Shown: piece by piece, positions 40,600 to 44,871 of the stretch
Layout: each line of letters opens with the position of its first letter
Position numbering within the stretch: position 1 is the first letter of the stretch
Assembly (NCBI GenBank): GCA_009780855.1
Contig: WQZG01000007.1
Location: 1-64,000 of the forward strand
Length of the DNA stretch: 64,000 nt
Direction: 5' to 3'
Source: Treponema sp.
GTDB taxonomy: Bacteria; Spirochaetota; Spirochaetia; Treponematales; Breznakiellaceae
The notes under the pieces: generated by a model
The model's database searches: none
Seen by the model: the letters and a program-made list of their open reading frames with translations, nothing else
Told to the model about the DNA's origin: nothing
Made by a program: the position numbers and the translations under genes

Positions 40600-41931
40600 T
40601 CAATTTTTTTTCCAGATATCCAGGCTGTGGTTTGTAAGTCCCGTTAAATCATTTCTCTCGCAGATTGAATAATGATAATTTAAGTAACATTCAAAAGTGA
40701 CATCATCCATTGCGTCAACGGTACTGCGCATATATTGGGTATAAAGATCTGCCGCAACGTAATGCAGCCTTTTTGCGCCAAGCGTTTCCATCAGGGTGTC
40801 AATGTCTTCCCTGCGGTACAGTTCAAAAATTTCAGAAGGATCCGATATGACCTTAAACGTTTCCGGATCAAGAAGTTTCTTTTCAAAGATCTCCGGCATA
40901 TGCCGGCCTTCGAACCCGTACTGGATAATGCTTGCCTCCTGAATACAGTAGGCGGCAAACATTACGCCGCCCGGTTTTGTTACCCGCAGGGTTTCCTCAA
41001 GCGCCCTTCGCTTGTCAGCGGTATTGTACAGATGATACATGGGCCCGAGCAGCAGGACGATGTCGTAACTGTTGTCCGCGATGGACGATAAGTCCAGGAC
41101 ATTGCCCTGTTTTACGCTGATCCTGTGGTCTGGTTTTATCTGGCTTTTAAAAATTTCGATGTTGTGCTCTATCAATTCAACTGCGTCCACCTGGTAACCC
41201 TCGTCCGCAAGACGCAGGCTGTACCGGCCTGTTCCGGCGCCTATATCCAGGATGCGCGCTCCTGGCTTGATGAAGCGTTTGATGTAACGCATCGTTGTAA
41301 GGAATTCGACGCTGCCGCTCCTGGTTAAAAGCCGGTTGTTTTCGTTGTACCTGTTGTAGTATTTTTCCAGGGGGTCCAGGTAGATCCAGTACCGTTCCAT
41401 ATCAACGTCTTCGCTGTCCAGACGGGTCGTCCTCTCGTAAACACCTCCCGCGCCCAGTATGGTTTTGCGGCTCCCCTCGTTGCCGCTCATACAGGTCAGC
41501 AGTACTTTTGAAAGGCCGGCCTGTCTGCATCTCTGCAGACAGAGCCCCAGCATTTTTTTTGCATAGCCTTTGAGCCGCTCCGACTTGCGCACCGAGTAAC
41601 CGATGTGTCCGCCGTATTCAGCCAGATATTCGTTTAGCCAATGCCTGAAATTTATCATCCCCAGGACTTTCCCGTCGCCGGCGCGCACCAGCATATATTG
41701 ATCGGATTCAACCCTGTCCGGCGGACAAGTCTCCTGTTTTTCCAGCAGCCGGCACAATTCGATCCATTTAATTGGATCATCGTACTTTTCCAGTCCGCCC
41801 GCTCCGTTCATGCGATCTGTTGAATTTTCGAATTCTTTTTTATAAGCAAGGATTTCCTGTGAATATTTTGCATCCGGTTTTACCAGAATTAAATTTTCGC
41901 TGATCACATTTTCGCTGATTGAATTTTCCAT
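40600..41931 (-). CDS. GNAT acetyltransferase fused to a SAM methyltransferase
   Basis: 443 residues, two domains. Residues about 10-190 form a GNAT fold: MLVRAGDGKVLGMINFRH, then HIGYSVRKSERLKGYAKKML (acetyl-CoA loop with R-x-x-G-x-A variant) and VLLTCMSGNEGSRKTILGAGG. Residues about 220-345 are a class I methyltransferase: ARILDIGAGTGRYSLRLADEG, VDAVELIEHNIEIFK, ISVKQGNVLDLSSIADNSYDIVLLLGPMYHLY. The C-terminal 100 residues resemble the tail of small-molecule methyltransferases. A natural fusion with no frameshift; substrates unknown. Next to another GNAT gene 36 bp upstream, so likely co-expressed. Confidence 0.82.
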   Translation of the reverse strand: MENSISENVISENLILVKPDAKYSQEILAYKKEFENSTDRMNGAGGLEKYDDPIKWIELCRLLEKQETCPPDRVESDQYMLVRAGDGKVLGMINFRHWLNEYLAEYGGHIGYSVRKSERLKGYAKKMLGLCLQRCRQAGLSKVLLTCMSGNEGSRKTILGAGGVYERTTRLDSEDVDMERYWIYLDPLEKYYNRYNENNRLLTRSGSVEFLTTMRYIKRFIKPGARILDIGAGTGRYSLRLADEGYQVDAVELIEHNIEIFKSQIKPDHRISVKQGNVLDLSSIADNSYDIVLLLGPMYHLYNTADKRRALEETLRVTKPGGVMFAAYCIQEASIIQYGFEGRHMPEIFEKKLLDPETFKVISDPSEIFELYRREDIDTLMETLGAKRLHYVAADLYTQYMRSTVDAMDDVTFECYLNYHYSICERNDLTGLTNHSLDIWKKN

Positions 41932-41967: not shown

Positions 41968-42858
41968 TTACTCACGCCGGTATTGATCGGCATCTCCGAA
42001 TTTGATCGTTAATGAATCGCCGATTGGAACATACCCGATCTTTTGATAGATGCTGTTTGAAACCGGATTTGCCAGATCCGTATACAGCACACATTTGGTA
42101 AAACCCTGCTCAAGAATCATCCGGCTTAATTGTGCAACGACAGAAGAAGCGTAGCCTTTGCCCCTGAAGTATGGAGGCGTATAAACCATGCTGACCCCGC
42201 AGACAGTCTGCATCTCGCGGTTCTTTTGCGCCATCGAGACTTCGGTGCCTTCATGCTCAAGTACATACACCTTTTTTTTATTAACAAAATATTTATAGGT
42301 TTCCAGGTTCGGTTTGGGCGTGGGCATGTCTCCAAAGCAATCGGCGTTGAATCCCTCCAGCCAGTAAGGAAAAAATGAAAGGTCTTTATCTTCCAACAGC
42401 CGCATCTTGCCAAATAGCGGAATGGCGGGATTCACTTTAAACAGCTCATAAATGCGCATTTTACTTTCGATTGTATAACTTGTTTTTGCCGCCGCTGACC
42501 AGGCCCCGGCAAAACGTTCCGCCAGGCTGTTCTCTGTCATTACGCCGGGGACAATAATATCGCCGGCGATAAGGCCTTCAACAAGACATTTAAGAGCGTC
42601 ATCGCGGATTTTATTGTTAGTCGCGTAAAGGGTAAGATTGTGCGGCGGCGTCATGATCGCGGTAAGGAGAATGCCTGAGTCGTTTGTAACTGTCGCCATA
42701 AACCAGGCTGCAGAATCCCGCCAGCCGGCTTTGTCCTTTCCCTCATTGCCAATGATAATGTTGCCAAGCGGAATCAGGTTCTGCGCTTCGTGGCGCATCA
42801 GCACATCGCGGGTGTCTTTGTAAAAAACTTTGACATCTGTATACAGGTTAAATCTCAT
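41968..42858 (-). CDS. GNAT N-acetyltransferase under an attenuator-like leader
   Basis: 296 residues. The first ~170 residues are a divergent N-terminal domain, and the C-terminal half is a GNAT fold: VSMVYTPPYFRGKGYASSVVAQLSRMI holds the Arg/Gly-x-Gly-x-Ala acetyl-CoA loop, and LYTDLANPVSNSIYQKIGYVPIG is the family's final strand-helix. The ATG has AGGAGG upstream, and only a few bases before that lies an intrinsic terminator with a T9 run, preceded by a 30-codon ORF and a promoter. Expression therefore probably depends on read-through. Substrate unknown; antibiotics or amino acids are both possible. Confidence 0.82.
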   Translation of the reverse strand: MRFNLYTDVKVFYKDTRDVLMRHEAQNLIPLGNIIIGNEGKDKAGWRDSAAWFMATVTNDSGILLTAIMTPPHNLTLYATNNKIRDDALKCLVEGLIAGDIIVPGVMTENSLAERFAGAWSAAAKTSYTIESKMRIYELFKVNPAIPLFGKMRLLEDKDLSFFPYWLEGFNADCFGDMPTPKPNLETYKYFVNKKKVYVLEHEGTEVSMAQKNREMQTVCGVSMVYTPPYFRGKGYASSVVAQLSRMILEQGFTKCVLYTDLANPVSNSIYQKIGYVPIGDSLTIKFGDADQYRRE

Positions 42859-42869
42859 GTTTCTGCCTC

Positions 42870-42910
42870 CTGCAAAAAAAAACGGCCCGGAACCTTAAGG
42901 CTCCGGGCCG
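42870..42910 (-). terminator. Intrinsic terminator in the GNAT leader
   Basis: On the minus strand CGGCCCGGAGCC, loop TTAA, GGTTCCGGGCCG (12 pairs with one G-T), followed by nine T. The T-run ends just before the ribosome-binding site of the GNAT gene, so full termination would block that gene. A smaller hairpin (TGACC/GGTCA) lies just upstream. Confidence 0.85.
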
Positions 42911-42937
42911 CATGATCTGACCTTTATTAAACGGTCA

Positions 42938-43030
42938 TTACAATAACAGCCCGGATGTTTCTACCCAATAAATAGCGTCGTGCTGCTGAAGGGAGAAACA
43001 TACTGTCTGCATTGAAATAATCGTTTTCAT
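42938..43030 (-). CDS. Putative 30-residue leader peptide
   Basis: Short ORF from an ATG at 43030 to TAA at 42938, reading MKTIISMQTVCFSLQQHDAI and then ending ETSGLLL. It begins about 13 bases after the predicted transcript start and ends 28 bases before the terminator hairpin. No strong SD is visible (AAAG only). Translation is inferred from its position, as in ribosome-sensing attenuators of resistance genes. The frame is open further upstream into a repeat, which is not part of the gene. Confidence 0.45.
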   Translation of the reverse strand: MKTIISMQTVCFSLQQHDAIYWVETSGLLL

Positions 43031-43049
43031 TTTTAATAACTTTATTGTT

Positions 43050-43078
43050 ATTAGAACATGGCTTTGGAAAGGTGTCAA
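43050..43078 (-). promoter_or_regulatory. Promoter of the GNAT leader
   Basis: On the minus strand a consensus TTGACA (43078-43073), a 17-base spacer and TCTAAT (43055-43050). The predicted start is near 43043. This is one of the best sigma70 matches in the window. Confidence 0.7.
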
Positions 43079-43084
43079 TATGGT

Positions 43085-43133
43085 GGTTGTGGGGAGTAGG
43101 GAGTGGGAAGTGGTTAGTGGGGAGTAGTAGGCA
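43085..43133. repeat. Heptanucleotide tandem array C
   Basis: Seven units in phase: GGTTGTG, GGGAGTA, GGGAGTG, GGAAGTG, GTTAGTG, GGGAGTA, GTAGGCA. Four of these units are also found in array B. It lies just upstream of the leader promoter. Confidence 0.75.
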
Positions 43134-43157
43134 GTTTTTATTGAATTATCATCAAAT

Positions 43158-43207
43158 TTCGTCAAATAGCGAATATTTTGATCAGAAAAAACTCGCTATT
43201 TGACGAA
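43158..43207 (+). repeat. Perfect 15-bp inverted repeat with T-run
   Basis: TTCGTCAAATAGCGA at 43158-43172 and its complement at 43193-43207, 20-base loop, followed by ten T on the plus strand. It looks like a terminator but no plus-strand gene precedes it, so it may end a small RNA or be an element end. Confidence 0.6.
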
Positions 43208-43270
43208 TTTTTTTTTCTGTAGTTTATTAATCCTAAAATTTACCACTTGCTGTGGATCTTCCTTACCATC

Positions 43271-43356: not shown

Positions 43357-43572
43357 ATGGCTATCCCGCATAATAAAAAATACCGTATACATAGCTTTCC
43401 TAAAGACGCTTTTCACATTGCATGTATTGCCCATAAAACACGAATACAAAACATACTCCGCTCTCCTGGTATAGACCCCATAGAAAAGGCCCTGTTAAAA
43501 CAGCGGTATATCAATCTCTCTGCCTCACAAAGCGGGTATGTGGAAAAACAGAAGAAGGCTATTGTCAGATAA
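43357..43572 (+). CDS. Small hypothetical protein
   Basis: 71 residues from the ATG at 43357, which has AAGGGG six bases upstream. The frame is also open back to 43252 from a GTG without SD, where a hairpin lies, so the upstream part may be a relic. The protein is basic (KYRIHSFPKDAFHIACIAHK, then a Lys-rich end) with no domain I recognise. It may be an eroded fragment of a longer gene. It lies 57 bases before the MFS gene start. Confidence 0.35.
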   Translation: MAIPHNKKYRIHSFPKDAFHIACIAHKTRIQNILRSPGIDPIEKALLKQRYINLSASQSGYVEKQKKAIVR

Positions 43573-43629
43573 TATTTGCCGCACACAGTCTTGTCTTTGT
43601 TATTACAAAATGTTTCGATATACATACTG

Positions 43630-44871
43630 ATGTACGGCAGCAGAAGAGACTTAAGGCATAACCTGTTCCTGTTTTTTTTTGACGGCGTTTTGTTTATGCC
43701 GGCTATGACATTGATCTCTGTATCTGCGGTAATTCCGTTTTATTTAAACCGGCTTGGGGCCTCAACCTTTCAAATCGCTCTGGCGGCATCCCTGGCTACA
43801 GTATGCAATTTCGCGGGTCAGCCTGTCTTTGGATACCTGGCGACGAAATCGCTGGTATTGCACAGGAGTTTTGGCAGTATCCTCCTGACCCAGCGGTTGA
43901 TTTTTTTGGCCTTTGTTTTGAGTATACCGTTATTTTCCGGTTCTGCTTTCCCGGTATGGATTTTTCTTTTTTTCTGGAGCGTGTTCTGTTTTTTTACCGG
44001 CTGCTATAATGTTTATTATACGCCGCTGGTAATCAAGCTGCTTCCGCCGGACAAGAGGGGTTTTATCCGCGGAATGGGAAACGCCGCGGGTTCCGGCCTG
44101 GGTCTGGGCGCCGCCGCGCTGATCCCTGTTATACTGAGCCGGGTTTTTTTTCCGTATAATTTTATGCTGATATTCCTGCTTGGCATCCTTCTTTTAATCG
44201 CAGACGCCTTTGTTTTTTTATTGATGCGCCAGCATGAAAATTTTAGCACAAACGTTTCAATGAATGTCATTCAGTATCTTAAGGAAATACCGGCCGCAGT
44301 AAAAAACAACAGGCCTTTCCGCTCCCTGATTTTAACATGCATGTTCCTGGTGGCCGCCAACTCCATGCTTCCGTATTATACCTTATACGCGATACGGGTT
44401 TTTGCGGCTGCGGAATCCCAAATTGCCCTGCTTGCCGCCCTTGCCGTAATATCAAACATTGCAGGTTACATTGTGACCGGAAGGGCTGTTGATCGTTTTG
44501 GCCCGCGGATTATTTCAAAATTAGCTGCCGTAACGATAATCGCTGCCGGCGGTCTTGCGCTCTTCACCGGATCGCTGCCTTTTTTGTTTGCGGCATGGAT
44601 ACTCGCCAACCTTGGAAACACCGGTTTCAACCAGATTATTTCCCTCCTGCTCGGCGAAGTTTGCCCTCCTTTAAAACTGCCGCTGTTTGTCGGTGTATAC
44701 ACAACGATTTCCCTCGCGTTATCATCGGCTGTTCTCCTGCTAATCGCGCCGGTCCTTGAGAGCTCCGGTTTCAAGTTGGTTTTTTCCGTTGTTACTGTAT
44801 GCGGAATTTTGAGTCTGCTGATAAATATGTTTGTGTTAAGAAATCTGAGCCATAACCCTGATAGCCTTTGA
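43630..44871 (+). CDS. MFS transporter
   Basis: 413 residues from the ATG at 43630; an in-frame TTG at 43576 is possible but without clear SD. About twelve hydrophobic helices. The helix 2-3 loop (FGYLATKSLVLHRSFGS) and 'PPDKRGFIRGMGNAAGSGLGLG' resemble the sugar/drug MFS group. No substrate motif allows a narrower call. The last 36 bases overlap the end of rnfB on the other strand. Confidence 0.82.
   Translation: MYGSRRDLRHNLFLFFFDGVLFMPAMTLISVSAVIPFYLNRLGASTFQIALAASLATVCNFAGQPVFGYLATKSLVLHRSFGSILLTQRLIFLAFVLSIPLFSGSAFPVWIFLFFWSVFCFFTGCYNVYYTPLVIKLLPPDKRGFIRGMGNAAGSGLGLGAAALIPVILSRVFFPYNFMLIFLLGILLLIADAFVFLLMRQHENFSTNVSMNVIQYLKEIPAAVKNNRPFRSLILTCMFLVAANSMLPYYTLYAIRVFAAAESQIALLAALAVISNIAGYIVTGRAVDRFGPRIISKLAAVTIIAAGGLALFTGSLPFLFAAWILANLGNTGFNQIISLLLGEVCPPLKLPLFVGVYTTISLALSSAVLLLIAPVLESSGFKLVFSVVTVCGILSLLINMFVLRNLSHNPDSL

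Follow-up and report, generated by a model that had tools for sequence, protein, structure and literature searches.

A probable transcription attenuator ahead of a GNAT acetyltransferase gene in Treponema sp.

The region in front of a GNAT acetyltransferase gene in Treponema sp. is probably a transcription attenuator belonging to a familiar type, and the anatomy of this leader is real and not a product of chance. The leader lies on the minus strand (43080-42858) of the window, by which we mean the whole stretch of 64,000 nucleotides that was analysed (contig WQZG01000007.1), and every element is found at the place and in the order first described, namely a promoter, a 30-codon ORF, a terminator with nine T, an AGGAGG site and the GNAT start codon, as the initial annotation had it (please see Table 1 for coordinates). 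We put it at about even chances that the leader is a ribosome-coupled, cis-acting transcription attenuator that would control the GNAT gene and probably the gene for a GNAT-methyltransferase fusion behind it.

Table 1. Features of the GNAT leader and its genes, and other leaders of the genome. Positions are those of the window unless another locus is named.
Feature	Position	Strand	Basis and remarks
Promoter	43050..43078	-	TTGACA 43078-43073, 17-base spacer, TCTAAT 43055-43050; extended -10 TG precedes TCTAAT
Leader ORF 1	42938..43030	-	putative coding; 30 codons, MKTIISMQTVCFSLQQHDAIYWVETSGLLL; without Shine-Dalgarno (SD) site
ORF 2	42927..43001	-	candidate alternative leader ORF; overlapping, other frame, 24 codons, MFLPSAARRYLLGRNIRAVIVMTV; without SD site
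P1 helix	42929..43026	-	folding; 43026-43007 with 42949-42929, excludes antiterminator
Antiterminator strand	42946..42955	-	duplex shuffles, folding; UCCGGGCUGU, near ORF 1 end, pairs with 42911-42902
Small hairpin	42918..42937	-	sequence and folding; TGACC-GTTTAATAAA-GGTCA, between ORF and terminator
Intrinsic terminator	42874..42911	-	sequence, folding, shuffles; stem 42911-42882, UUAA loop, nine T 42882-42874
SD site of GNAT gene	42866..42871	-	AGGAGG; 7 more bases, then ATG at 42858
GNAT acetyltransferase gene	41968..42858	-	296 aa; start codon ATG 42858
GNAT-methyltransferase fusion gene	40600..41931	-	443 aa; 36 bases after GNAT stop
ilvB leader	L086 4290-4507		enteric-like attenuator; MRFAVIGIVAVLSIILRETAILR
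hisG leader	L104 (G000:C1)		histidine-rich; MKRIPFIHHHHHNHLSLQRDAESSPK
pyrB leader	L103 18805-18949		enteric-like attenuator; reads into T run

In order to judge the elements against chance, we used dinucleotide-keeping shuffles of the 718-base intergenic region. A promoter of equal quality appeared in 1.4% of 1000 shuffles and a terminator of such quality in none of 1000, its stem having 13 pairs if one outer G-U is counted and G-C in 10. The promoter was missed by our consensus tool, which demands that the second base of the -10 box be A. ATG ORFs of at least 30 codons were seen in 4% of leader shuffles; taken alone, ORF 1 is weak evidence and not beyond chance. As far as the sequence can tell, then, the promoter, the ORF, the terminator, the SD site and the complementarity of strands described below are in place. 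The fusion gene is probably the second gene of a GNAT operon, with which it would be co-transcribed. Upstream lies a gene for an MFS transporter (43576-44871), divergent from GNAT, and the nearest minus-strand gene upstream ends at 44836. The intergenic region also contains a 58-base near-palindrome (43154-43211), a repeat, perhaps a MITE, of which several further copies are dispersed through the genome; an array of GTGGGGAGTAG with a 14-base period (43089-43127), similar G-rich arrays being found at about 40 places of the genome; and, on the plus strand ahead of the MFS gene (43381-43564), a relic that shares about 71% identity with a longer stretch (G000:C52:736-919).

The position of the terminator argues for an attenuator and not for the end of a preceding gene. 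The T run and the GNAT start codon are just 15 bases apart, hence no promoter fits after the terminator. Since there is no such room and no same-strand gene ends nearby, the GNAT mRNA must come from readthrough of the terminator, if the terminator works. At the level of sequence, an intrinsic terminator therefore stands between the promoter and the GNAT start with no later promoter. The earlier proposal of an attenuator-type leader is well supported by the strong terminator, by the lack of promoter space, by an alternative pairing and by ilv, his and pyr attenuators in the same genome, and we take up the last two of these below.

A census with one script covered 2.39 Mb of the 3.97 Mb genome (stretches amounting to 60%) and yielded 140 strong terminators, 18 of which stand just before an SD-like site and a start codon. 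Seven of these 18 closely trail a same-strand gene and several more resemble chance matches within coding regions. Clear leaders are those of ilvB, hisG, pyrB and GNAT. The identity of hisG was confirmed by family search (G000:C1:90775-91230), while ilvB, which we take to encode acetolactate synthase, and pyrB were named by reading their translations. Leaders of ilvB, hisG and pyrB are textbook attenuator types, and their presence means that the organism very probably uses attenuation. The his and pyr leader ORFs of this genome have no SD site and start close behind the -10 box. In related genomes, histidine-rich leaders are found at 8 of 30 hisG loci (for example MKRIFAHHHHHHGFSLRGA), their ATG mostly following a -10-like box by about 6-8 bases. 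The missing SD site is therefore no objection to ORF 1. The hisG leaders at L104 (G000:C1), L195, L196, L199, L201, L202, L206, L217 and L219 are apparently leaderless and SD-less. Rfam did not recognise the genome's own hisG, ilvB or pyrB leaders, and the GNAT leader, if its switch works as proposed, would add to the signs that enteric-style attenuation with SD-less leader peptides exists in this lineage and is missed by current RNA family models. We also considered the GNAT leader as a homologue of the his, ilv or pyr leaders and rejected this, the best result being a weak pyr match that 0.6% of shuffles reached, in one of six comparisons.

The alternative pairing joins the antiterminator strand to the 5' arm of the terminator over ten pairs, with a duplex energy of -19.9 kcal/mol. 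Of 2000 shuffled leaders, 5 attain this value; when a shorter upstream stretch was used, 1.3% of 300 shuffles did. The pairing ranks fourth among 26 intergenic terminators of a first genome sample, where three of the other 25 also satisfy the measure and the ilv attenuator is unremarkable. The upstream part of the leader (P1) folds better than 493 of 500 shuffles, and in folding of the growing RNA P1 forms before the antiterminator and the terminator comes last. When a ribosome occupies ORF 1, the folding model keeps the 5' arm of the terminator paired up to about codon 21 and frees it when the ribosome is at codon 22-23 through the stop codon, that is, it shows a sharp switch at codons 21-23. 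However, the his and ilv leaders, which were used as controls, do not switch in the model, which also favours the antiterminator without a ribosome until the terminator is nearly complete. We therefore treat the ribosome-position switch as a hypothesis and not as a validation. The small hairpin between the ORF and the terminator was tried as a genome-wide element and dropped as no family, since only one other exact TGACC/GGTCA copy exists. As TGACCGTTTAATAAA(T)GGTCAGAT the hairpin occurs twice in the genome (42918-42937 and G000:C68:7252-7282), in each case next to or within a terminator ahead of a gene, the C68 copy being in the terminator loop.

In the mechanism that we propose, RNA polymerase would begin at the predicted start near 43043 and by default stop at 42911-42874, so that the leader RNA measures about 170 bases. 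Translation of the 30-codon ORF would start from a 5' end that is nearly leaderless. If the ribosome reaches the stop codon, it would cover the antiterminator strand (42955-42946) and the terminator would form; if it is held before about codon 21, the strand would stay exposed for pairing to the 5' arm of the terminator, and the gene would be transcribed. The transcription start, the termination, the translation of the ORF, the coupling to the ribosome and the signal are in this scheme what we infer. Classical attenuators have the same logic, with free translation leading to termination and early stalling to antitermination. As for the signal, ORF 1 shows no stretch of a single repeated amino acid ahead of codon 28, and the run of regulatory codons upstream of the antiterminator that marks an amino-acid-specific leader is absent from it. 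Its three leucine codons (LLL) come at the end, within the antiterminator strand or beside it, and stalling at them would favour termination. Sensing of a specific amino acid is therefore unlikely, and the best remaining guess is that a general disturbance of translation, rather than the shortage of one amino acid, is the signal. A more far-reaching and rather doubtful reading is that of a general translation-stress sensor in a gut bacterium that gene content and genome relatives mark as probably spirochaetal, in which a nearly leaderless ORF without amino-acid specificity would switch the GNAT and GNAT-methyltransferase operon and would extend the his/ilv/pyr plan of the lineage to stress or resistance. 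If the switch works as proposed, the acetyltransferase operon would be wanted only under disturbed translation, and this would be a direct lead to its function.

Other explanations share much of the above evidence with a ribosome-coupled attenuator. The terminator and the alternative folds need no ORF, ORF 1 has no SD site and an ORF so long occurs in 4% of shuffles; the ORF might therefore be incidental, with a protein, a small molecule or another RNA acting directly on the leader fold in the manner of riboswitches or of antitermination by RNA-binding proteins. We consider this unlikely, as the antiterminator strand lies inside the ORF, which ribosome coupling would predict, and SD-less leader ORFs are normal in the lineage. 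Nor did any Rfam family match: a search for riboswitches, T-boxes and Rfam leaders gave none at gathering score and, below gathering, terminator-driven matches only. Very unlikely, in our estimate, is a leader that constitutes a separately terminated, independent small RNA gene, or one that serves as a plain block and leaves a recently acquired gene almost silent. Such an origin would suit the dispersed repeats and the gene relic of the intergenic region, and also the rarity of the GNAT gene, which is present in 2 of 393 genomes of the phylum (its own included), the other copy being a distant relative with 31% identity. But the promoter, the SD site and the GNAT frame, RGKGYA motif included, are all intact, a strong SD site 3 bases behind the T run is odd for an unexpressed gene, and the antiterminator pairing would have to be a coincidence.

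The possibility that drug-stalled ribosomes on the leader ORF antiterminate a resistance operon, i.e. that the attenuator is inducible by antibiotics, bears on the function of the genes. GNAT and methyltransferase domains occur among resistance enzymes. Both domains are present here together with a divergent MFS transporter, and in its anatomy and in-silico logic the leader agrees with the ermK type (PMC5418344). We nevertheless regard it as quite unlikely. GNAT matched no resistance family above its cut-off and no specific family, the best resistance models being arsinothricin and phosphinothricin acetyltransferase, far below cut-off; its close orthologue lies between selA, NUDIX and selB, in a selenium-type gene row, and there is no known inducer. 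The initial annotation had suggested GNAT as a resistance or stress determinant, and as a resistance determinant it is unsupported, as is the step to ribosome-targeting drugs as the signal. A resistance role of the GNAT operon is possible. The structure prediction of GNAT with its one orthologue had a mean pLDDT of 32 and was unusable for a fold search. For the methyltransferase half of the fusion there is a match to the PADLOC model mad2 (1.8e-20, residues 220-375) that most likely reflects the generic fold.

Conservation of the leader would support the class of ribosome-coupled attenuators and does not define that class. Our pattern search for orthologues used one genome per species (84,980 species), reaches close relatives only, and gave a sole close GNAT orthologue, 66% identical, in a Defluviitaleaceae genome (L038 2492-3370). 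In that genome it overlaps a NUDIX gene within the row selA-NUDIX-GNAT-selB, an apparent operon in which selA, NUDIX and selB are presumably correct names, given from reading of the gene products; this setting might hint at the GNAT substrate. Neither a leader nor a terminator stands ahead of this orthologue. The expected conservation upstream of orthologues is thus absent from the single one that could be checked, which sits in a different operon and gives the comparison low power. The methyltransferase half of the fusion has relatives of 36-46% identity in many genomes of the same order, and among the relatives checked no leader like that of GNAT precedes either these or the distant GNAT homologues. 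The search for the same leader elsewhere, which had also been suggested, gave no convincing match in the genome or the phylum.

Among known systems, the drug-sensing transcription attenuators include ermK, msr, vmlR and bmrCD and the term-seq set of Dar et al. 2016 reviewed in PMC5418344. For ermK, free translation leads to termination and early stalling to antitermination (PMC5418344). The GNAT leader resembles this group in having an ORF without amino-acid specificity, an antiterminator that early stalling favours (according to the model here) and a terminator just before the gene, but it has no known inducer or proven resistance gene, its ORF is SD-less and it is not conserved. The toiL-topAI-yjhQ-yjhP locus of Escherichia coli (PMC12121999) likewise has a small ORF ahead of a GNAT and methyltransferase operon, and works by translational repression with Rho-dependent termination (PMC12121999). 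We do not regard the GNAT operon as a relative of topAI-yjhQ-yjhP; the only match is a generic methyltransferase one (24% over 109 residues) and the likeness is in plan only. From attenuators of the his/ilv/pyrBI type the GNAT leader differs in that it lacks a run of regulatory codons and precedes a gene that does not encode a biosynthetic enzyme. It nevertheless shares with them a promoter, a short ORF close behind it and a terminator before the SD site of the first gene, and with the his and pyr leaders also the SD-less leader start.
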